Under the pieces are notes generated by a model. That model saw only the letters and a list, made by a program, of their open reading frames with translations, had not been told where the DNA came from and made no database searches. From the NCBI RefSeq assembly GCF_000166295.1, contig NC_017506.1:1984001-2048000 (forward strand): 64,000 nt of DNA. The letters run 5' to 3'. A program made the position numbers and the translations under genes. Shown piece by piece: positions 6,521-19,950 of the stretch (its first letter is position 1; each line of letters starts with the position of its first letter). The stretch comes from Marinobacter adhaerens HP15 (lineage in GTDB: Bacteria; Pseudomonadota; Gammaproteobacteria; Pseudomonadales; Oleiphilaceae).

Positions 6521-6635
6521 GGGGGTGACTCCATCAGCGACACCCCGGCACACAATTCCACCGCTGCGGCTGCTCCCTTCCGGGCCTGACCGGGTTCACG
6601 GTTTCATGTTGCGGAGGCACCAATGGAGCCACCAT
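6521..6635 (-). ncRNA. ffs: 4.5S signal recognition particle RNA
   Basis: Read on the minus strand, the segment has the hallmark SRP RNA domain IV apex GGTCAGGCCCGGAAGGGAGC, with the GGAA tetraloop and the asymmetric loop that binds Ffh. The ends pair in a long hairpin (GGTGGCTCCAT with ATGGAGTCACC), and the CCGCAAC segment after the 5' strand is as in E. coli 4.5S RNA. Ends are set by the terminal pairing and may be off by a few bases. It lies between dnaX and the oxygenase gene. Confidence 0.93.
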
Positions 6636-10364: not shown

Positions 10365-12500
10365 ATGTTCAGCAACATGGACGTACTCAGCTACTCGCTG
10401 GCGGCGATTACGTTCGGACTTCTGGCGATTTTGGTGGCGGCACGATACCTTCGTCGCGGAGTCGACCGCGCTCTTGCGCTTGCCTCAACCGTTACGGCCG
10501 TTTGGGCGTGTTCGCTCGTAAGTCAGAGCATTTGGGGCTATCCGGGCTTTAACCTGAGATATTTGATTGAATTGCTTCGGGATGCCGCCTGGATTTACCT
10601 GCTCTTTGCGTTGCTGAAAGACGGACTGAGGGAGAATAAGCTCACCGGCAAAGTAAAGCAGATTCTGGGCGCAAGCGCGGGCGTGCTACTTTTGGTTCTG
10701 CTCGGAATCGGGCTCATCGAAAATTTCACTGATATGGCCATGGCTAGCGGGAAAATCAAACTTCTCGGCCAAATCGGACTTTCCCTGCTAGGCCTGTCTC
10801 TCATCGAGCAAATCTGGCGCAATTCCCCCAGTTTCGGAAGATCAAGTATAAAATACATGTGCATTGGCGCGGGGACTATCTTCGCCTTCGATTTCTTTAT
10901 GTATTCCGATGCCCTCCTCTTTGGGCATGTTGCGGAATCGTTCTGGAACGCTCGCGGTTTTGTAAATGCTCTACTGACACCGCTATTCGCGGTCAATGTT
11001 ATCAACACCCGCAGGCAGCCCGTTGATTTTCACTTGTCCCGCTCGGCAGTTTTTCATGGTGGAACACTGATATTTGCCGGTGGCTATCTGCTGTTTCTTG
11101 CCCTCGGTGGCTATTATGTTCGAACCCTGGGTGGGCAATGGGGCGACGCGCTTCAGGTTCTATTTTTCACGATTTCGCTTGTTTTCCTGACTACGCTCCT
11201 TCTCTCGAGGCGCATCCGTTCCAAACTGATGGTATTGATCAGCCAAAACTTTTTTGACTACAAATACGACTACCGCGAAGAATGGCTGAAAATGACGCGG
11301 GAGCTTGCCGACCTCAGTGACGACCCTCCTCTACCCCAGCGCGTCATAAGGATTCTCGCGGGACTAGTTGAGAGTAACGCGGGTGCGATTTGGCTCATTG
11401 GCGAGCAGGATGCTTACGTTCTCAAAGCTTCGGTCAATCTTTCGACACCCAAATACACCATGATCGAGGGCAACTCCGAGCTGGTTCGCTTTTTTCGGGA
11501 CCGTGAGTGGATTGTCGACTTACATGAATACAAGGCAGATCCGGTCAGCTACAACCTTTTGGAAATTCCTGACGCAATAGCAAAAACTCCTGACTGCTGG
11601 CTGATCATTCCTCTTTATTTGGGCAATGAGCTCTATGGGATGGCTCTTGTCGGCAACCCATACGCCCGCGTAGAGCTCAATTGGGAAAACTTTGACCTCA
11701 TTAAGGTCGTGGCTCGGCAGACCTGCAACCTGCTCGCCCAAGCCGATGCTCAATACAGATTATCCCGTGCGATGCAGTTTGAAGCCGTAAGCAAGGCGTC
11801 CTCTTTTATGGTTCATGACCTGAAAACCGTGATTGCCCAGTTGTCACTGCTGGTGAAAAATGCGCCAAAGCATCGCAATAACCCTGCATTCATTGACGAT
11901 ATGATCAATACAACTGAACACGCTGTGAGGAAAATGTCGAATCTGGTAGATCACATTCGCAAACCTCATACAGAAGAAAAGGTCAATCTTGAACCGATCA
12001 ACCTGACACATTTGGTTCAGCACTTGGTGACGCATTATCAGCATCGGACGCCAGCGCCGCATGTTGTCGGCTCTCCACCAGAAGCGATCATTAAAGCTGA
12101 TACTGAGCATCTCCGCAGCGTACTGGGCCATCTGATTCAGAACGCACAGGACGCGACACCGCAGACAGGGGAAATCACTCTTACAATCAAGACATCCAAA
12201 GGCTCCGTAGTTCTGTTCATTCAAGACACAGGCTCAGGAATGACAGAAGAATTCATCAGTGACCAATTATTCAAACCTTTTGAAAGCACCAAAGGTCTGA
12301 CGGGCATGGGTATTGGCGCTTATCAGGCTAGGGAATACATACGGAAAATTGGGGGAAGTATCGATGTTACAAGCGAGCCCGGGGTTGGGTCATGTTTCTC
12401 TGTGCGAATCCCCCTTGCATTCGAAAAGGCGGTACAACTGACTGAACAAACATATCGACCAGATCATGACGCGGACCACTCAAAGGAGAGCGTCAATTAG
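10365..12500 (+). CDS. prsK: PEP-CTERM system sensor histidine kinase PrsK
   Basis: A 711-residue membrane histidine kinase of the PrsK type that accompanies exosortase systems. The N-terminal 280 residues form a set of about eight membrane helices, then a GAF-like region (residues 310-460), then the kinase core. The phospho-acceptor lies in FMVHDLKTVIAQ (His about 484). ATP-binding boxes follow: N box HLIQNAQDAT, G1 DTGSGM, G2 GMGIGAY. It should phosphorylate PrsR, whose gene follows 100 bases later. Start ATG 10365 has GAGG eight bases upstream; ATG 10377 is a less likely alternative. The input signal is unknown. Confidence 0.92.
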   Translation: MFSNMDVLSYSLAAITFGLLAILVAARYLRRGVDRALALASTVTAVWACSLVSQSIWGYPGFNLRYLIELLRDAAWIYLLFALLKDGLRENKLTGKVKQILGASAGVLLLVLLGIGLIENFTDMAMASGKIKLLGQIGLSLLGLSLIEQIWRNSPSFGRSSIKYMCIGAGTIFAFDFFMYSDALLFGHVAESFWNARGFVNALLTPLFAVNVINTRRQPVDFHLSRSAVFHGGTLIFAGGYLLFLALGGYYVRTLGGQWGDALQVLFFTISLVFLTTLLLSRRIRSKLMVLISQNFFDYKYDYREEWLKMTRELADLSDDPPLPQRVIRILAGLVESNAGAIWLIGEQDAYVLKASVNLSTPKYTMIEGNSELVRFFRDREWIVDLHEYKADPVSYNLLEIPDAIAKTPDCWLIIPLYLGNELYGMALVGNPYARVELNWENFDLIKVVARQTCNLLAQADAQYRLSRAMQFEAVSKASSFMVHDLKTVIAQLSLLVKNAPKHRNNPAFIDDMINTTEHAVRKMSNLVDHIRKPHTEEKVNLEPINLTHLVQHLVTHYQHRTPAPHVVGSPPEAIIKADTEHLRSVLGHLIQNAQDATPQTGEITLTIKTSKGSVVLFIQDTGSGMTEEFISDQLFKPFESTKGLTGMGIGAYQAREYIRKIGGSIDVTSEPGVGSCFSVRIPLAFEKAVQLTEQTYRPDHDADHSKESVN

Positions 12501-12600: not shown

Positions 12601-13974
12601 GTGACTAGACGACTCTTGATCGTAGAAGACGACCCGGGGCTCCAGAGCCAAATGCGCTGGTGCTTCAGCGATGATCTGGAAGTAAGCCTAGCGTCGGATC
12701 GTGAATCCGCATTGGCACTCCTGCGACGAGAAGAGCCCAATGTAGTGACCTTGGATCTAGGCCTCCCCCCTGACCCAGGAGGAGCCTCTGAGGGATTCAG
12801 TCTTCTGGAAGAAATTCTCAGGCTCGCGCCACTAACAAAAATCATCGTTGTTACCGGTCGCGAAGACAAGGAGAATGCTGTCAAGGCCATTGGAATGGGC
12901 GCATCAGACTTTTACCAAAAGCCTCTGGATGCAGACATCCTGACCTTTGTCGTAGACCGAGCTTTTCGGCTTTATGAACTTGAGCGCGAGAATCGCGAAC
13001 TGGCGAACCAGCAGAACGCCACCAATATCAAAGGTATTGTCGCAGCCAGCCCGCAAATGCTTCAGGTTTGCCGGACGCTAGAGAAAATCGCGCCGACTGA
13101 CGTTACTACACTCATAAACGGTGAAACCGGAACCGGCAAGGAGCTGCTCGCTCGGGCACTGCATGATCTCAGCCCTCGAGCCTCAAAGCCCTTCGCGGCC
13201 ATTAATTGCGCAGCAATACCTGAAGCCCTCTTGGAAAGCGAGCTATTCGGCTACGAAAAAGGCGCTTTTACCGGCGCAACACAGAACAAAAAGGGCAAAA
13301 TAGAGTCTGCCAACGGTGGCACGCTTTTTCTTGACGAGATAGGGGACATGCCTTTCGCGCTGCAGGCAAAATTGCTCAGATTTCTTCAGGAACGGATGAT
13401 TGATCGCGTTGGTGCGATCGAACCAATTTCAGTTGATGTACGGGTTATATGTGCGACCCACCGGAATCTGAACCAGCTTATTGAAGGCGGCGAATTCCGG
13501 GAGGATCTGTACTACCGCATTAGCGAAATCACGCTTGACGTCCCTGCTCTGAGGGATCGTGATGGCGATGCCCTGGTTCTCGCCCAATCACTCCTGAAAA
13601 GTATCGGGAAAGAGCTCGACCGCCCCAACCTGTCCTTCGCCGAGGACGCCATAAGCGCCGTCAATAACTATCCTTGGCCCGGGAATGTGCGGGAGATGAT
13701 CAACAAGGTCAAGCGCGCGATCATAATGGCCGAAGGTAAAAGAGTCACTGCCGAAGACCTGTCCCTTCAAGCTACATCAACGCAAGATGAGAAATGCCTG
13801 AACCTTCGCCAGATTCGAGAAACCGCAGAGCGGCGTGCGCTTAACCAAGCACTTCAGGTCAGCGGATTCAATATGGCGAGGGCGGCCCGATTACTTGGCA
13901 TAACACGCCCCACCATTTATAGCCTTACCGATAAGTACAACATCGAAACCTCCGAAGCTTCACCAGAGAGCTAA
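12601..13974 (+). CDS. prsR: PEP-CTERM system sigma-54 response regulator PrsR
   Basis: A 457-residue NtrC-type activator with a GTG start. Receiver domain: acidic pair VEDD (10-11), phospho-acceptor D52 in TLDLGLP, K107. AAA+ domain: Walker A GETGTGKE (174-181) and the sigma-54 contact loop GAFTGA (221-226), so it can open sigma-54 promoters. A Fis-type helix-turn-helix (ARAARLLGITRPTIY) ends the protein. Family knowledge links PrsK/PrsR to expression of PEP-CTERM genes. The two sigma-54 promoters found downstream in this window, both with a common 13-base upstream element, are the obvious targets. Confidence 0.94.
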   Translation: MTRRLLIVEDDPGLQSQMRWCFSDDLEVSLASDRESALALLRREEPNVVTLDLGLPPDPGGASEGFSLLEEILRLAPLTKIIVVTGREDKENAVKAIGMGASDFYQKPLDADILTFVVDRAFRLYELERENRELANQQNATNIKGIVAASPQMLQVCRTLEKIAPTDVTTLINGETGTGKELLARALHDLSPRASKPFAAINCAAIPEALLESELFGYEKGAFTGATQNKKGKIESANGGTLFLDEIGDMPFALQAKLLRFLQERMIDRVGAIEPISVDVRVICATHRNLNQLIEGGEFREDLYYRISEITLDVPALRDRDGDALVLAQSLLKSIGKELDRPNLSFAEDAISAVNNYPWPGNVREMINKVKRAIIMAEGKRVTAEDLSLQATSTQDEKCLNLRQIRETAERRALNQALQVSGFNMARAARLLGITRPTIYSLTDKYNIETSEASPES

Positions 13975-13993: not shown

Positions 13994-16669
13994 ATGAACA
14001 ACGTAACTACATTGCCCATGTTCAAGCGACACCGCCACCATGGGCGCGTGATTACCTTTTGCAAGGGTCTGTATATCGGCACCAGCCTTGTGGCAGCGCT
14101 GGTTTTAGCCGGATGCGGCGGGGGTTCAACAGAGCCCGAAGGGCTCACTCACATTAATCGAAGTGAGACCTACGCAGAGCAAGGGCAGTACAGATCCGCC
14201 ATGCTGGAAATAAAAAACGCCATCCAGCAGGAACCGGAAAATCTAGACTACATTCTACGCCTTTCTGATCTCTATCTTCGTGTGGGTGCCTATCCAGAAG
14301 TCGAGACACTCCTGGGTCCGCGACTGGATCAACAGCCCGGCGAGATCGCGCTTCCCTTAGCAGAGTCCTACATTGGGCAAGGCAAACACTTATCTGCGCG
14401 TGAAACATTGGCACTGGCCGACCTTGAAACCCCAGAGGAAAAAGGTCGAGGCGCCGTTGTTCAAGGCGGCGCGCTGAGACTCGCCGGCGACTATCAGGCA
14501 GCCATTGAGCAATTCGAAAAGGCACTTGCTGAGGGGTGGCAAGTGGAAAAGGCGACTGCCGGGATCCTGAAAACCTACCTGCATCTGAACAATCCTCAGA
14601 AAGCAGTATCCGAGGCTGACTCCTATCTCGCAGAATACCCTGAAAGCTCCGAGGTCTTGATGTTAAAGGGGCGCGCACTTTACACGCTGAACCGCCTTGA
14701 GCCGGCTGTGGAGGCGCTAACGGCAGCTGTGGGCGCTCTCCCCAACTCTGACTTTTTTCTGCCAGTGCGAAGACAAACACTGACATTGCTTTCCCGAGTG
14801 CTCACGGAACAGGGCCGTGTTACCGAAGCACAGGTTTATAACCGGGTTCTTGCAGAAAATACCGATTCCGATCTTGAGAATCAGGCAAAGTCAGCGATTT
14901 CTGCGATTAAAGAAGGTCGCTTCGACGAGGCCTCTGAGACCCTCCAGGACCTGCTCCAGTTAAACCCGGATAACGAACGCATCGCTCTTACCCTTGGCGC
15001 GCTAAATCTGCAACAAGGCAGGCTTCAAGAGGGCCTGGATCTGCTTTCTCAGAATATTGATCCGGAAACGTCTCCCACCCGCTTCATTCGGCTTACAACA
15101 ATGGCTCGAATCGACAAGGGTGAGCGCCGGGAAGCCTATGCAACGCTGGCTCGAGCAATTGAGGCCCGCCCCGACGACACGGAGCTGCTGGCTATGCATG
15201 GCATGGTGGCGCTGAGTCTCGAAGACACGAAGTCCGAGGGCGTTGCCAGTCTGAGCCGGGCCCTAAGCCTCAATCCCGAGAACGTTCGTCTTCGACTGGC
15301 CCTAGCCAACTATTACGAAGGCCAAGGGATGCCCGAGCAAGCTCTGGGACAACTTCGGATTGCCTTTGCAAACAAACCGGACGACTGGCCCACCACAGCG
15401 GCCTACGTGCGTTTACTTATCCGAGAGGGCCAAACCGGGGAGCTTAGAGAGTTGCAACAGTCTCTGGAGAACGGCTACCCCGAGAACCGCTCTGCGCAGC
15501 TTCTTGCAGCGATTTCATTAGCAGGAACTGGTGATACCGAAGAGGCAATCAAGAAGTTGGAAGGCCTCCGTGACACCAACCCTGAGAGCATTGAAGTAAA
15601 CATCACGCTAGCCCAGCTATACCAGGAGGCGGGTCAACCAGCCAAAGCCGTCAACAGCTTTGTCGCAGCTGCCAAACAAACCGAGCCAAAACTACCGTTG
15701 TTGTTCAGGGCTGCCCGGCTTCATGCCGCCAACCATCAGAACGAGTCCGCCGTTGAAGACTGGACCAAGTCTGTCAGTCAGGCTGAACCCGAATTGGCAG
15801 ATGCTCTGGCCGCAACAGAGATTCTTTGGCTGATATCCGAAGATGAACTGGAGACAGCCCGTTCCCGGCTAGCAGAAGTCGGCAAGGGAATAGAGTCAGC
15901 GTCTCTCAAGACCGCTGAAGCCAACCTGCTTGCTGCCGAAGCACAGAAACTAACACTCTCAGAACAATGGGATGATGCGGTCAACAAGGCTCAGCAGGCT
16001 TTTGCACTGAACCCTGAAAATCAGGGGTTTGCTCTGTTACCAGCACGAATCCGCACCCAACAGGGTAATATCGAGGCAGCTGAGTCTGCGGTATTGGAAG
16101 TCGAGCAGGTTTTCGGAGCAACGGCCCCGGTGACCACTGCACGCGCCGCCATCCTACAGGCTGATAATCGCGCTGAAGAAGCTTTTCAGACCCTCTATAA
16201 ATTTTGGAGTGAGAGCGGTGATCCTGCCGTCCTTCCCGCGCTCGTTCAGCTGTCCAACCAGGTCGCGCAAGAGAAGACCGACGAACTTACAGCAAAATGG
16301 GTTGATCTCGTCCCTGATAGCGTTCCGGCCAACCTTTCCCGCGGGAATCAATTGATGACCGAAGGCAACATCATGGCGGCCGCAAATCACTATCAAAAGG
16401 TTTTACAGCGGGATCCGCTCCACACAACGGCTTTGAACAATCTTGCCTGGGCATTAAGGGATACAGACACCCCTCGTGCACTTGAATTCGCAGCTCGCGC
16501 TGCCGAGATTGAGCCTGAGAACCCGGCGATTCTCGATACCTATGGCTGGATTCTTCATCTCGATGGCCAACACCGTGCAGCAATGGATCAACTACAACGA
16601 GCGCTCGCAATGGCCCCGGATAACGAAGAATTCAAAAAGCACCTCGACGAGATTCGCAGGGCATTATAG
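13994..16669 (+). CDS. prsT: PEP-CTERM system TPR-repeat lipoprotein PrsT
   Basis: An 891-residue lipoprotein made almost entirely of tetratricopeptide repeats. After a basic 24-residue leader, a hydrophobic segment ends in the lipobox VLAGC (Cys41). Repeats run to the C-terminus, for example YAEQGQYRSAMLEIKNAI, NNLAWALRDTDTPRALEFA and NPAILDTYGWILHLDGQHRA. Length and architecture match the PrsT family (TIGR02917 by recall), thought to be a scaffold for matrix export or assembly. It follows prsR by 19 bases and is closed by an intrinsic terminator. Confidence 0.92.
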   Translation: MNNVTTLPMFKRHRHHGRVITFCKGLYIGTSLVAALVLAGCGGGSTEPEGLTHINRSETYAEQGQYRSAMLEIKNAIQQEPENLDYILRLSDLYLRVGAYPEVETLLGPRLDQQPGEIALPLAESYIGQGKHLSARETLALADLETPEEKGRGAVVQGGALRLAGDYQAAIEQFEKALAEGWQVEKATAGILKTYLHLNNPQKAVSEADSYLAEYPESSEVLMLKGRALYTLNRLEPAVEALTAAVGALPNSDFFLPVRRQTLTLLSRVLTEQGRVTEAQVYNRVLAENTDSDLENQAKSAISAIKEGRFDEASETLQDLLQLNPDNERIALTLGALNLQQGRLQEGLDLLSQNIDPETSPTRFIRLTTMARIDKGERREAYATLARAIEARPDDTELLAMHGMVALSLEDTKSEGVASLSRALSLNPENVRLRLALANYYEGQGMPEQALGQLRIAFANKPDDWPTTAAYVRLLIREGQTGELRELQQSLENGYPENRSAQLLAAISLAGTGDTEEAIKKLEGLRDTNPESIEVNITLAQLYQEAGQPAKAVNSFVAAAKQTEPKLPLLFRAARLHAANHQNESAVEDWTKSVSQAEPELADALAATEILWLISEDELETARSRLAEVGKGIESASLKTAEANLLAAEAQKLTLSEQWDDAVNKAQQAFALNPENQGFALLPARIRTQQGNIEAAESAVLEVEQVFGATAPVTTARAAILQADNRAEEAFQTLYKFWSESGDPAVLPALVQLSNQVAQEKTDELTAKWVDLVPDSVPANLSRGNQLMTEGNIMAAANHYQKVLQRDPLHTTALNNLAWALRDTDTPRALEFAARAAEIEPENPAILDTYGWILHLDGQHRAAMDQLQRALAMAPDNEEFKKHLDEIRRAL

Positions 16670-16697: not shown

Positions 16698-16729
16698 AAA
16701 CCAGACTCGAAAGCGTGTCTGGTTTTTTT
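16698..16729 (+). terminator. intrinsic terminator after prsT
   Basis: AAACCAGAC pairs with GTCTGGTTT across an 8-10-base loop and is followed by a run of seven T, 30 bases after the prsT stop. It separates the prs operon from the PEP-CTERM gene, which has its own promoter. Confidence 0.85.
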
Positions 16730-16781
16730 ACATCTCATGCATAGCCGCTTTACACAACCAATCTGACGGCTTCTTCACTCA

Positions 16782-16794
16782 ACTGTTTTATATA
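16782..16794 (+). promoter_or_regulatory. shared upstream element, possible PrsR site (copy 1)
   Basis: ACTGTTTTATATA, identical to the copy at 19360-19372. Both copies start 26 bases before the first base of a sigma-54 -24 box and both precede PEP-CTERM genes. Assignment to PrsR is inference. The distance is shorter than for usual enhancer sites, so an architectural or integration-host-factor-type role is also possible. Confidence 0.6.
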
Positions 16795-16806: not shown

Positions 16807-16823
16807 CTGGCACGGATGTTGTT
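16807..16823 (+). promoter_or_regulatory. sigma-54 promoter of first PEP-CTERM gene
   Basis: CTGGCACGGATGTTGTT fits the -24/-12 consensus (YTGGCACG-N4-TTGCW) with one mismatch, TTGT for TTGC. GG-GC-equivalent spacing is exact. Transcription would start about 12 bases downstream and give a leader of roughly 115 bases that contains the riboswitch candidate. Confidence 0.82.
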
Positions 16824-16845
16824 TAACAGACGACGTGGGGACATT

Positions 16846-16918
16846 TCCCCGCCGCCAAACCTCTCGCGAGAGGGGGACGGAAAGCCACGGATCTCTCTGA
16901 GATAGCCGGGTTGCACGG
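16846..16918 (+). ncRNA. candidate c-di-GMP-I (GEMM-I) riboswitch
   Basis: The leader shows the GEMM-I core in order: CAAACC; a stem CCTCTC-GCGA-GAGGGG closed by a GNRA tetraloop; GGGACGGAAAGCCACGG; a second short hairpin (ATCTC...GAGAT); and TAGCCGGGTTGC. Compared with the remembered consensus (GCAAACC...GGGACGCAAAGCC), the pair positions read CC/GG instead of GC/GC, and the outer stem reads CCG/CGG instead of CGG/CCG, both of which keep pairing. No T-tract follows, and a GGAG ribosome site lies about 20 bases downstream, so control of translation is more likely than of termination. Ends are approximate. Confidence 0.72.
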
Positions 16919-16950
16919 AACGCACTACACCTTGACGGAGTATCAGTACA

Positions 16951-17745
16951 ATGAAATTGGCCAGAACGACTTTAGCTGTAGCGTGTCTGAGCGCCATGTC
17001 TGCTCAAGCAGCATTCATTAACAACGGTTCTGAGGCGAATCTCAGTGAGATTATCAACGACAATCTCATTGTCTCGGGAAGCAGCGTTAATGTGCTCGGC
17101 GATACCAAAAACAATGATGTAAGCACCGAACCATTTTTTACCTCTTCCCCGGACGGAAGCAACAGCACAGCAACCTTTCTGATTGAAATCACGTCTATGC
17201 TGTCCAAACAGTCTTTCGGCATCTACAACGGCGACGACTACGTCGAGTTGTTTAACGGTGCGGACGAAGGCAGCTTTACAACCAGTGGCGGCTTTAACGG
17301 GCCCGTAACTGACAACGCCAACCGCGCCCAAGTCAGTTTCGACATCTCGGGTGGTAGCTACAGCGTTTACGTCAACAATCAGAAAAAGGGTACCTTTGCC
17401 AGCGAGGAATTCGGTTTCTACCTGGGTCGCGGTGGCGCCCCGGTAATCTATTCCGATGCCGAACGTAATGGTGGCGTTGAGCGATTTGTTGCAATTCAGG
17501 GCAAGGGGCAGCGGATCAATCTAGGCAGCGAAATAACCTACGGCTGCAGTGAAGATACTCCTGAGAAATGCGTACTTTGGGAAAGTGATGACTACATCCT
17601 TGGTTTCGAGGACGGATCAGACATGGACTACAACGACATGCTGGTCTACGTGGAGGACATCGTCCCGGTTCCAGAACCCGGAACGCTTGCGCTTCTTGGG
17701 ATCGGCCTTTTCGGCCTCGGTGTCGTTCGGCGCCGCAAAGCCTAA
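16951..17745 (+). CDS. PEP-CTERM sorted protein with DUF4114-like region
   Basis: A 264-residue secreted protein: signal peptide (LAVACLSAMSAQA), an acidic Asn/Gly/Ser-rich body, a calcium-type segment near the end (GFEDGSDMDYNDMLVYVED) as in DUF4114 domains, and a C-terminal sorting signal VPEPGTLALLGIG, hydrophobic helix and RRRKA tail. Four cysteines are absent except for one pair (YGCSEDTPEKC). The exosortase encoded next should cut at the PEP motif. ATG 16951 has GGAG ten bases upstream. Expression appears to be controlled by sigma-54, the 13-base element and the riboswitch described above; an intrinsic terminator follows. Confidence 0.9.
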   Translation: MKLARTTLAVACLSAMSAQAAFINNGSEANLSEIINDNLIVSGSSVNVLGDTKNNDVSTEPFFTSSPDGSNSTATFLIEITSMLSKQSFGIYNGDDYVELFNGADEGSFTTSGGFNGPVTDNANRAQVSFDISGGSYSVYVNNQKKGTFASEEFGFYLGRGGAPVIYSDAERNGGVERFVAIQGKGQRINLGSEITYGCSEDTPEKCVLWESDDYILGFEDGSDMDYNDMLVYVEDIVPVPEPGTLALLGIGLFGLGVVRRRKA

Positions 17746-17874: not shown

Positions 17875-19290
17875 ATGACTTTGGTTCCCCGGCTTTCTCG
17901 TGCTTGGCCTTTTCTCTTGGCCACCCTCGCATCCGTTGTGATTTTCTATCCCTCATGGGCCAGGCTCGCTGAAATCTGGCTTAAGTGGGAACAGACCATG
18001 TCACACGGCCTACCCACAGCTATTGCCTATCTGGCCCTCCTTATTGTCCACCCACCTCTGGATAGCAGCTCACGCTGGTCTGAAAAAGGGCTCTGTAGTC
18101 GTCTTGTTGGGGGAATACTGCTCATTCTTGTCACTTCCGCGTGGGCAGCACTTGAACTGGTTCGTATCGATACGCTGGCCTATCTCACCTTGCCAGTCAG
18201 CCTTTTTGCAATCGCGTGGACCCTACTAGGGCTCGGGGGCGCGCTGAAGCTCATCCCATACCTGCTCCTGCTCAGCCTATCGCTGCCTATATGGGCTGAC
18301 CTCATTCCGATACTGGTGAACGTGGCCACCGTCGTCGTCGGGGGCGCAGTCAGCGCCATGGGAATAACCGCACTGATTGAAGGCAGCAACATTACGCTCG
18401 CCTACGGCAGACTCGTTATTGCAGATGGCTGTTCAGGCATCGGCTTCCTCGCGATTGCAATGGTGCTTGGAGCATTCACGGCAATCCTGAACGACTATCG
18501 GTGGCGAGGCTGGGCAATGATAATGTCCTGCTCAATTGTCTTGGCGCTGGTTATTAACTGGGTCCGTATCATTGCATTGGTGCTAATAGCTGACTGGACA
18601 AATATGGAAAGTTCCCTGGTTCGTGAACACGAGATGTTCGGCTGGATCGTGTTCGCAGCCTTTATTCTGCCAGCGCTTGCTCTGGCTCCGGTCAGGCGCC
18701 GAAAAACTTTACAGTTCGGTAATGATCACGTGATCAGCTACTCCGCTTCTGGTTTTATTTTGTTCGCGCTGGTAGCCGGGTCAGGAGCGGTTTTCATGGT
18801 TCAGTCGAGGGAGATAGAGGAATCTCCACTCTCGATCACAGGCGCTGACTTACGCGAGATAAGTGCGCCCGCTCTTCCCTTATCTCTCCAGGTGCCTGAT
18901 CAACTTGAACAAAGATTCTTCATGGAGGAAGGCACGGAGGTTTACGTATCCCTGGCACAGATCCAACGTCATTCTCCGGAGGAAAAGATCGTCCCTTACT
19001 TACCCCCACTCGTGGATCGCGATATGTGGTTCAGGGAAGCGACACCAGCTCCAGGCAAGGAAATATGGAGGCGCATCAGCACACCTCAGAGGGTAGTTGT
19101 CTCACATATTTACGCTATTGGCGCCTACCGCACAGATACCTACGTCAAAGCCAAGTTATTACAACTGCCAGCAATCTACAGTGGAAGAACGCGGTTTGCA
19201 CTGATTTCCCTGCAGGCCGCGTGCAAAACCTCAACCTGTGAAGAGGCTTTGGACCGCATCGCTGCCTTTGAGGCCAAGACTGATATCTGA
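17875..19290 (+). CDS. exosortase with C-terminal EpsI-like region
   Basis: A 471-residue inner-membrane cysteine protease/transpeptidase-like enzyme that removes PEP-CTERM signals. About eight hydrophobic helices fill residues 10-280. The catalytic residues are visible: Cys186 in ADGCSGIGFL, Arg231 in NWVRIIAL, His252 in REHEMFGW; the early SHG motif is at 43-45. After a last helix (about 285-310) comes a periplasmic region of some 160 residues resembling EpsI (DUF3485-like), which in many genomes is a separate gene. The subtype (XrtA or another) is not certain; the PrsK/R/T neighbours and the XrtA-type locus at 42-61 kb favour XrtA. Confidence 0.88.
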   Translation: MTLVPRLSRAWPFLLATLASVVIFYPSWARLAEIWLKWEQTMSHGLPTAIAYLALLIVHPPLDSSSRWSEKGLCSRLVGGILLILVTSAWAALELVRIDTLAYLTLPVSLFAIAWTLLGLGGALKLIPYLLLLSLSLPIWADLIPILVNVATVVVGGAVSAMGITALIEGSNITLAYGRLVIADGCSGIGFLAIAMVLGAFTAILNDYRWRGWAMIMSCSIVLALVINWVRIIALVLIADWTNMESSLVREHEMFGWIVFAAFILPALALAPVRRRKTLQFGNDHVISYSASGFILFALVAGSGAVFMVQSREIEESPLSITGADLREISAPALPLSLQVPDQLEQRFFMEEGTEVYVSLAQIQRHSPEEKIVPYLPPLVDRDMWFREATPAPGKEIWRRISTPQRVVVSHIYAIGAYRTDTYVKAKLLQLPAIYSGRTRFALISLQAACKTSTCEEALDRIAAFEAKTDI

Positions 19291-19359: not shown

Positions 19360-19372
19360 ACTGTTTTATATA
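19360..19372 (+). promoter_or_regulatory. shared upstream element, possible PrsR site (copy 2)
   Basis: ACTGTTTTATATA, the second exact copy, again starting 26 bases before a -24 box. The flanks differ from copy 1, so the identity is not simply a recent duplication of the whole region. Confidence 0.6.
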
Positions 19373-19384
19373 GCTTTACTCATG

Positions 19385-19402
19385 TTGGCCTCACCATTGC
19401 TT
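19385..19402 (+). promoter_or_regulatory. sigma-54 promoter of second PEP-CTERM gene
   Basis: TTGGCCTCACCATTGCTT has TGGC and TTGC at the exact -24/-12 spacing; the second half of the -24 box (CT for AC) is weaker. The leader would be only about 35 bases, with GGAAGG before the ATG and no room for a riboswitch. Confidence 0.72.
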
Positions 19403-19446: not shown

Positions 19447-19950
19447 ATGAACAAATTTATTGGAGGAGTCGCTGCGGGCGTATTCATGACTTTTGCGACC
19501 GCGCAGGCAGGCATGATCACTGACACGGTTAACCAGGCAGTGAAATTGAATATGTGGGACAGCCACTCCTACACCCACAATATTAACGATGATGGATTCG
19601 TATTGGGCAGCGCAGTAAGTGGCACCCTGGAAATCGACGTCGCAGACGATCGTGACGGCTGGTTCTCCCTGTTCGAAACCATCCTGTTTCAAATCGAAGA
19701 TTTCGATTTTGACACCGGGACCATCCAGTTTGGCACAGCTGATTTCGGCAGCAACCTCGAAGCGGAAGCTCTGGGTGCACTGAATGCTGATGGCTACCTC
19801 GACGTTACGGTTAAGTCTCTTAGCGGTGACTTCTACGTAGGCAAGTCAGTTCTCTCTGTAGTAACCGAAGCTGTTCCCGAGCCTGGCACACTTGCCCTGT
19901 TGGGTCTTGGTCTCGCCGGTCTGGGCGCTGCCCGCCGCCGTAAGGCCTGA
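19447..19950 (+). CDS. short PEP-CTERM sorted protein
   Basis: A 167-residue secreted protein. The signal peptide ends near AQAG. The body is acidic, beta-rich and without cysteines (for example DDRDGWFSLFETILF, DFDFDTGTIQFG). The C-terminus has VPEPGTLALLGLG, a hydrophobic helix and RRRKA, almost identical to the signal of the first PEP-CTERM protein. Function unknown; likely a component of the extracellular matrix. It has its own sigma-54 promoter and terminator, so it is a single-gene unit. Confidence 0.88.
   Translation: MNKFIGGVAAGVFMTFATAQAGMITDTVNQAVKLNMWDSHSYTHNINDDGFVLGSAVSGTLEIDVADDRDGWFSLFETILFQIEDFDFDTGTIQFGTADFGSNLEAEALGALNADGYLDVTVKSLSGDFYVGKSVLSVVTEAVPEPGTLALLGLGLAGLGAARRRKA

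Follow-up and report, generated by a model that had tools for sequence, protein, structure and literature searches.

An RNA that is almost certainly a c-di-GMP switch precedes an exported matrix-protein gene in Marinobacter adhaerens HP15

What controls the production of exosortase-sorted surface proteins? The controlling signal of PEP-CTERM/exosortase systems is largely unknown, and the stimulus of the kinase PrsK was called obscure by Haft et al. 2006 (PMC1569441). The locus analysed here is a natural control pair for this question: two PEP-CTERM genes have the same type of promoter, one with an RNA switch in its leader and one without. A c-di-GMP aptamer in such a leader would tie one PEP-CTERM/exosortase output directly to the main biofilm signal. 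In the window (the whole 64-kb stretch of DNA that was analysed), the gene order is prsK, prsR, prsT, the switch, PEP-CTERM gene 1, an exosortase gene and PEP-CTERM gene 2, with these products:

10365–12500, + strand: PrsK histidine kinase (TIGR02916, 672 bits; cut-off 300)
12601–13974, + strand: PrsR sigma-54 response regulator (TIGR02915, 681.7 bits; cut-off 502.6)
13994–16669, + strand: PrsT-like TPR lipoprotein (TIGR02917, 303.2 bits, below the cut-off of 312.2)
16951–17745, + strand: PEP-CTERM protein 1, 264 amino acids (PF07589, 33.6 bits, cut-off 20.7; TIGR02595, 29.1 bits, cut-off 16)
17875–19290, + strand: XrtA-like exosortase (TIGR04178, 60 bits, above the cut-off of 23; TIGR03109, 134.8 bits, below the cut-off of 208)
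19447–19950, + strand: PEP-CTERM protein 2, 167 amino acids (TIGR02595, 29.0 bits; PF07589, 34.6 bits)

TIGR02595 has two matches in the genome, both within the window. The window also carries a bacterial small SRP RNA on the − strand (6529–6625, 71.1 bits).

The sequence-only reading had proposed a c-di-GMP-I riboswitch ahead of the first PEP-CTERM gene, to be judged by the Rfam cut-off, and a covariance-model search bore it out. RF01051 (c-di-GMP-I, GEMM-I) matched 16844–16918 on the + strand with 50.5 bits against a gathering threshold of 35 (E = 6.6e-7 over the 64-kb window; full model, 1–87, aligned), the sole RF01051 match reported in the 4.65-Mb genome. That this segment is a riboswitch for c-di-GMP, a biofilm signal, is almost certain. 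RF03167 (c-di-GMP-I-GGC) scored 53.0 bits on the aptamer, below its gathering threshold of 59. The GEMM-I elements named earlier do occur in order: CCAAACC (16855–16861), the GCGA-loop stem (16860–16875), GGGACGGAAAGCCACGG and TAGCCGGGTTGC, the last ending in C92 at 16914. The alignment to RF01051 gives the following parts:

16844–16918, + strand: c-di-GMP-I aptamer (RF01051, 50.5 bits; gathering 35)
16854, + strand: G20, the specificity base
16855–16880, + strand: helix P2, with the reversed inner pair C21–G46, then C22–G45, and a GCGA tetraloop at 16866–16869
16881, + strand: A47
16883–16912, + strand: helix P3, short and without the 11-nt GAAA receptor
16914, + strand: C92

The first hairpin has a GNRA tetraloop, GCGA, and the 11-nt tetraloop receptor is absent by inspection of the alignment; this receptor is common in c-di-GMP-I RNAs and is not demanded by the RF01051 model. 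The inner CC/GG pairing, which had been flagged as departing from consensus while staying complementary, is real: among 24 aptamers of the same subtype, pair 12–37 is C–G in all 24 and pair 13–36 in 23. In the alignment of these 24, both partners vary in 9 of 20 pairs, and pairing holds in 94.6% of cells, a level that none of 500 shuffles reached. Counting against the riboswitch reading, the whole leader folds no better than shuffles (z = −0.67). In the nearest relative, locus L021 (98% protein identity), two positions between G20 and the start codon are changed, and many on the promoter side, as judged by eye. The contig that carries L021 is about 92% identical to the locus over 5.7 kb and comes from a metagenome-assembled genome labelled Rhodopirellula that is probably mis-binned.

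Upstream of the aptamer, a sigma-54 promoter and the PrsK/PrsR pair had been claimed, and both are present, with TIGR02916 and TIGR02915 above their cut-offs and the promoter at 16808–16823. The control elements are:

16727–16732, + strand: second TTTACA, which begins 81 nt before the promoter and shares letters with the prsT terminator's T run
16749–16754, + strand: TTTACA, the core of Haft motif 1 (predicted PrsR site), which begins 59 nt upstream of the promoter
16808–16823, + strand: sigma-54 −24/−12 promoter TGGCACGGATGTTGTT (10 of 11 consensus letters)
19386–19401, + strand: sigma-54 promoter of PEP-CTERM gene 2 (pattern match), with TTTACA starting 70 nt upstream

Across both strands of the window the sigma-54 pattern matched at 16808 and 19386 only. 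The first of these promoters starts 36 nt before the aptamer match and predicts a transcription start at about 16834. According to the published rule for the PrsR regulon, a −24(GG)/−12(GC) promoter is preceded, 32–92 nt upstream, by a motif 1 ending in TTTACA (PMC1569441). Here GG stands at −24 and TTTACA starts 59 and 81 nt upstream, with GT rather than GC at −12, in a comparison that covered the 6-nt core of the 17-nt motif. The −12 element, TTGTT and not TTGC, counts against the sigma-54/PrsR reading. In Aquincola, pepA depends on RpoN and its transcription start has been mapped (PMC9850573). DVUA0057, a regulator predicted for PEP-CTERM genes, enriched all five of its predicted PEP-CTERM targets in a DNA-binding chip assay (PMC3333781). 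By eye, ACTGTTTTATATA is common to both PEP-CTERM promoters (16782–16794 and 19360–19372), starting in each case 26 nt before the sigma-54 site. Also by eye, the T run of the prsT terminator enters a TTTACA (16699–16732), and terminator and possible PrsR site overlap.

The second PEP-CTERM gene (19447) had been described as having the promoter and no space for the switch. It does have the sigma-54 site at 19386, and its leader, about 35 nt by estimate, is too short to leave room for an aptamer; no Rfam match at gathering was found in it.

Given this arrangement, it is very likely that a c-di-GMP-I riboswitch in a PrsR/sigma-54 leader gates the translation of PEP-CTERM protein 1. Two further features enter this model:

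16835–16852, + strand: 5′-terminal hairpin P0 (GUGGGGA/UCCCCGC; fold z −3.1)
16937–16940, + strand: Shine-Dalgarno GGAG, 10 nt before the start codon

Transcription would start near 16834 from a PrsR-driven sigma-54 promoter and give a leader of about 117 nt, carrying in order a short hairpin, the aptamer and a terminator-free stretch with the Shine-Dalgarno. c-di-GMP would bind at G20, A47 and C92, as the alignment suggests, and binding would most likely alter translation of the PEP-CTERM message, probably switching it on. PEP-CTERM protein 1 would then need both a PrsK/PrsR signal and high c-di-GMP, and PEP-CTERM gene 2 would need PrsR alone; such a two-input gate (PrsR plus c-di-GMP) is consistent with the anatomy of the locus. 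No terminator was found in the leader, the single terminator-like match falling within the promoter, and control is probably translational.

On balance we lean towards c-di-GMP turning PEP-CTERM gene 1 on. The opposite, an off switch in which the ligand hides the Shine-Dalgarno or stops elongation and so limits PEP-CTERM protein at high c-di-GMP, is doubtful but the strongest competitor: the anatomy does not fix the direction, and folding shows no clear switch in the window's leader. With the aptamer enforced (P1 left unenforced), the modelled unpaired probability of the Shine-Dalgarno moved from 0.31 to 0.35; of 32 leaders modelled, 7 gained more than 0.1 in exposure and 2 lost exposure. Against an off switch, the predicted partner of the Shine-Dalgarno in 6 of 11 family-f47 leaders (L040, L069, L074, L079, L081 and L089) is the strand 1–6 nt after C92. 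Because this strand is also the 3′ strand of P1, ligand binding would free the Shine-Dalgarno in those six leaders, which predicts an on switch; the partner lies elsewhere in the other five (L043, L061, L067, L070 and L076). For the window, the on switch is read purely by analogy. On inspection by eye, several genus members, but not the window, could pair the Shine-Dalgarno with the 3′ strand of P0 or of the aptamer. In Methylophaga, 10 of 11 riboswitches, including 3 of the 4 linked to CTERM genes, had higher transcript levels in biofilm, which also argues against an off switch, and one of the 4 was higher in planktonic anoxic cultures, which fits it (PMC12530212).

Is the unusual inner pair a peculiarity of this RNA or the mark of a group? 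At E ≤ 0.001, RF01051 matched in 15 of 57 relatives in addition to the window's own genome, some of these matches being of another subtype, which counts against our reading, in searches whose filters lose weak matches. Larger searches, also run with filters that lose weak matches, gave matches in 51 of 390 genomes of the order and 67 of 369 of the class (own genome included in both; some genomes recur). The base after G20 was C in 40 of the first 116 loci classified, and the aptamer belongs to a recognisable c-di-GMP-I subtype with the inner pair C21–G46. In a 158-locus set, which takes in loci found by a subtype-built model and in which loops were read at fixed positions, a GNGA loop occurred in 46 of 55 C21-type and 6 of 103 other loci, and a pattern like the 11-nt receptor in 2 of 55 and 51 of 103, respectively. 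GNGA is a weaker mark of the subtype in the class, where RF01051 alone was used and the counts were 8 of 20 C21-type loci against 6 of 90 others. Among 17 C21-type loci scanned, the best above-gathering match was RF03167 in 4, RF01051 in 12 and neither in L016. Some c-di-GMP-I matches come in pairs (L004 and L017, about 0.8 kb apart; G472:C36 975–1057 and 1197–1279, about 0.2 kb apart), and one genome (G584) has 11.

To compare the genes behind these RNAs, the longest open frame with its start no more than 300 nt away was scored by a C-terminal rule for exosortase targets (proline motif, hydrophobic run, basic tail). A length limit had at first missed clear cases; the rule was then revised once and is not blind. 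The order set held 86 loci (5 weak matches left out, 19 loci without a complete frame), and the class set, which was not used to define the subtype, held 110 (5 matches left out, 29 without a complete frame). An exosortase-target gene lay downstream of 35 of 39 C21-type aptamers in the order, compared with 1 of 28 others and 5 of 198 background frames; in the class the counts were 9 of 16, 1 of 65 and 8 of 502 (Fisher p = 4e-7). Related genomes within these counts are not independent; with each genome counted once they became 27 of 31 versus 1 of 24 (order) and 9 of 13 versus 1 of 42 (class). The lone exception among the others in the order, L026, is probably a false call, and that in the class, L226, combines a canonical inner pair and a GCGA loop with a VPxxA-CTERM-like gene. 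Seven C21-type loci of the class with a complete frame lacked a target gene, five of them from two genomes (G635 and G429). Family scans of 40 order-set proteins (E 0.01) found PF07589 in 25, TIGR02595 in 26, TIGR03370 in 11 and an alpha/beta hydrolase in 4; in a Pfam scan of 70 proteins encoded after other-subtype RNAs, PEP-CTERM was not among the best 25 of 77 families listed. In related bacteria, too, this unusual form of the switch is found mostly ahead of genes of this kind.

The loci themselves differ in their surroundings. Of 55 C21-type loci compared, 16, including the window's own, have a PrsT match upstream; 13 of these 16 belong to the window's genus. Most PEP-CTERM proteins at the compared loci are about 28–40% identical to the window's. 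One family, f28 (L044, L060, L073 and L077, recognised as the four hydrolase loci by their protein tails), has the C21 subtype and a 7-bp 5′ hairpin before an alpha/beta hydrolase (lipase-like) gene and not a CTERM gene. Locus L051 lies on a 42-kb contig (G000 contig 3) that matches plasmid genes such as trfA, kleE and korA and shares 99.6% identity with a Nitrincola iocasae plasmid over 4.6 kb; the contig is probably a plasmid of its host.

Promoter linkage was defined over all fetched loci as a promoter scoring at least 9 of 11 and starting 10–60 nt before the aptamer. In the order, 22 of 40 C21-type loci and none of 46 others showed it; in the class, the counts were 0 of 20 and 5 of 90. In the 21 promoter-linked loci other than the window's, the promoter starts 41–54 nt before the aptamer match in 19, and 16 and 21 nt before it in two. 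TTTACA or TTTACG stands 50–75 nt above the promoter in 17 of the 22 (the misses are L020, L059, L062, L067 and L075). The five class loci of other subtypes (L204, L213, L116, L117 and L192) have a sigma-54-like site 32–54 nt upstream and no TTTACA core; sigma-54 may be paired with c-di-GMP riboswitches elsewhere too.

The closing helix P1 is not part of the Rfam model. To look for it, we compared two 10-nt segments, one ending just before G20 and the other beginning just after C92, using each locus's own and exchanged partners. The outer CCG/CGG pairing (16849–16851 with 16916–16918), which the sequence-only reading had counted towards a folded RNA, can be drawn, and both halves are found in L021, but comparison gave it no significant support: in the 22 promoter-linked loci, P1 was not significantly above mispaired controls (267 of 2,000 permutations as good). 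For a hand-picked 16 of them (without L009, L020, L043, L059, L067 and L075) 1,194 of 2,000 permutations were as good, and elsewhere 0 of 2,000 (46 canonical loci of the order) and 3 of 2,000 (18 other C21 loci).

In the window, the 7-bp hairpin P0 (16835–16841 with 16846–16852) covers the would-be 5′ strand of P1. Over the 22 promoter-linked loci, the 30 nt before G20 had a mean fold z of −2.01 (−8.2 kcal/mol), and the range for 28 of the 29 control windows was −0.54 to +0.37; over the 16, the mean was −2.46 in the same kind of comparison of fold energy with 29 control windows. The outlying control window, 130 nt upstream, had z = −2.2 (22 loci) and −3.0 (16 loci), a signal that we attribute tentatively to the preceding gene's terminator. 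The six added loci gave 0.7 (L009), 0.4 (L020), −2.3 (L043), −0.1 (L059), 0.0 (L067) and −1.7 (L075). In L043 the hairpin is shifted upstream by about 16 nt. The promoters of L009 and L075 are so near the aptamer that almost no 5′ strand of P1 would be transcribed, and neither locus has a clear P0. Stem sequences vary, from GUGGGGA/UCCCCGC here to GAUCGGG/CCCGGUC, GAUCGG/CCGAUC and others in relatives. As a group, the other C21 loci of the order lack P0 (mean z −0.71, 18 loci), and four lipase-type loci have it. An arm-swap test for P0 (0 of 2,000 as good) was set aside as biased, since five control windows gave z from −0.6 to −3.1; by that test P0 scored −5.7, 76 canonical loci −6.0, and five 16-locus subsets of these canonical loci between +0.03 and −3.9. 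The case for P0 therefore rests on the fold-energy comparison with the 29 control windows. In promoter-linked loci, the 5′ strand of P1 appears mostly to be folded into a 5′-terminal hairpin instead.

Could the aptamer simply be decaying, with P1 gone, no switching and the gene run by PrsR alone? The lack of a significant P1 signal in promoter-linked loci and the 42 of 57 relatives searched that had no match (filters lose weak matches) would fit this, but we regard it as improbable: the aptamer core is nearly the same in the window and L021, the aptamer is kept with covariation across families, and the hairpin in the place of P1 is itself conserved. A functional riboswitch is preferred, and a wider proposal, speculative though plausible, can be built on it. 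The C21–G46 subtype, gammaproteobacterial, mostly GNGA-looped in the order and usually without receptor, would serve exosortase-sorted surface proteins for the most part. Within the genus of the window and families close to it, P1 would have been lost: transcription would begin at a PrsR/sigma-54 promoter shortly upstream of the aptamer, and a hairpin at the extreme 5′ end would stand in for P1 beside the ligand site. The outcome would be a two-signal gate on one matrix protein that switches by means other than P1 competing with the Shine-Dalgarno. If P0 truly replaces P1, these loci would be a test case for a riboswitch working without its usual closing helix.

Which ligand does the RNA bind? 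We take position 20 to be the specificity base, G for c-di-GMP and A for cGAMP, and assume from crystal structures that G20, A47 and C92 contact the ligand, with A47 stacking between its two G and C92 pairing with it. Position 20, which the earlier reading had singled out for inspection, is G (16854) and not the A of cGAMP-sensing GEMM-Ib; of the 40 C21-type loci in the order set, 39 have this G. Because G20 is kept, with A47 and C92, c-di-GMP is the predicted ligand and not cGAMP. The genome has 63 GGDEF matches, so c-di-GMP can be made by the host. An altered ligand (cGAMP or another cyclic dinucleotide) is very improbable, given the intact c-di-GMP set of bases in the roles assumed above and an inner pair that, though changed and beside the pocket, is still Watson–Crick, even if the subtype departs from consensus in this pair and often in tetraloop and receptor, and other-ligand variants of the c-di-GMP-I class are known (PMC7266159).

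Compared with known systems, the aptamer shares with RF01051 an above-gathering score, the two-helix core, a GNRA loop and G20/A47/C92, and differs in its C21–G46 inner pair, its GCGA rather than GAAA loop, the missing 11-nt receptor and the lack of a significant P1 signal in promoter-linked loci. RF03167 is the closest model by score (53.0), yet the aptamer stays below its gathering threshold of 59; at the position of A47 the RF03167 consensus carries G, and its inner pair is G–C. Neither the dedicated subtype nor the hairpin was found in the literature searched here. Since 4 of 17 C21-type loci pass the RF03167 cut-off, the subtype may nevertheless have been described before. The bare link between c-di-GMP riboswitches and PEP-CTERM genes is already published: in Methylophaga nitratireducenticrescens GP59, four c-di-GMP riboswitches each adjoin a PEP/VPLPA-CTERM gene near exopolysaccharide genes (PMC12530212). 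The available sections of that account give locations and transcript levels, and no aptamer subtype, promoter or PrsR; those of PMC10599522, PMC3495685, PMC13194489 (Geobacter), PMC8233155 and PMC3333781 do not make the link. The available parts of the PrsK/PrsR regulon papers describe no riboswitch in leaders, and what the present locus has in common with that regulon is the −24/−12 promoter, the TTTACA site and the kinase, regulator and TPR genes (PMC1569441, PMC9850573, PMC3333781).
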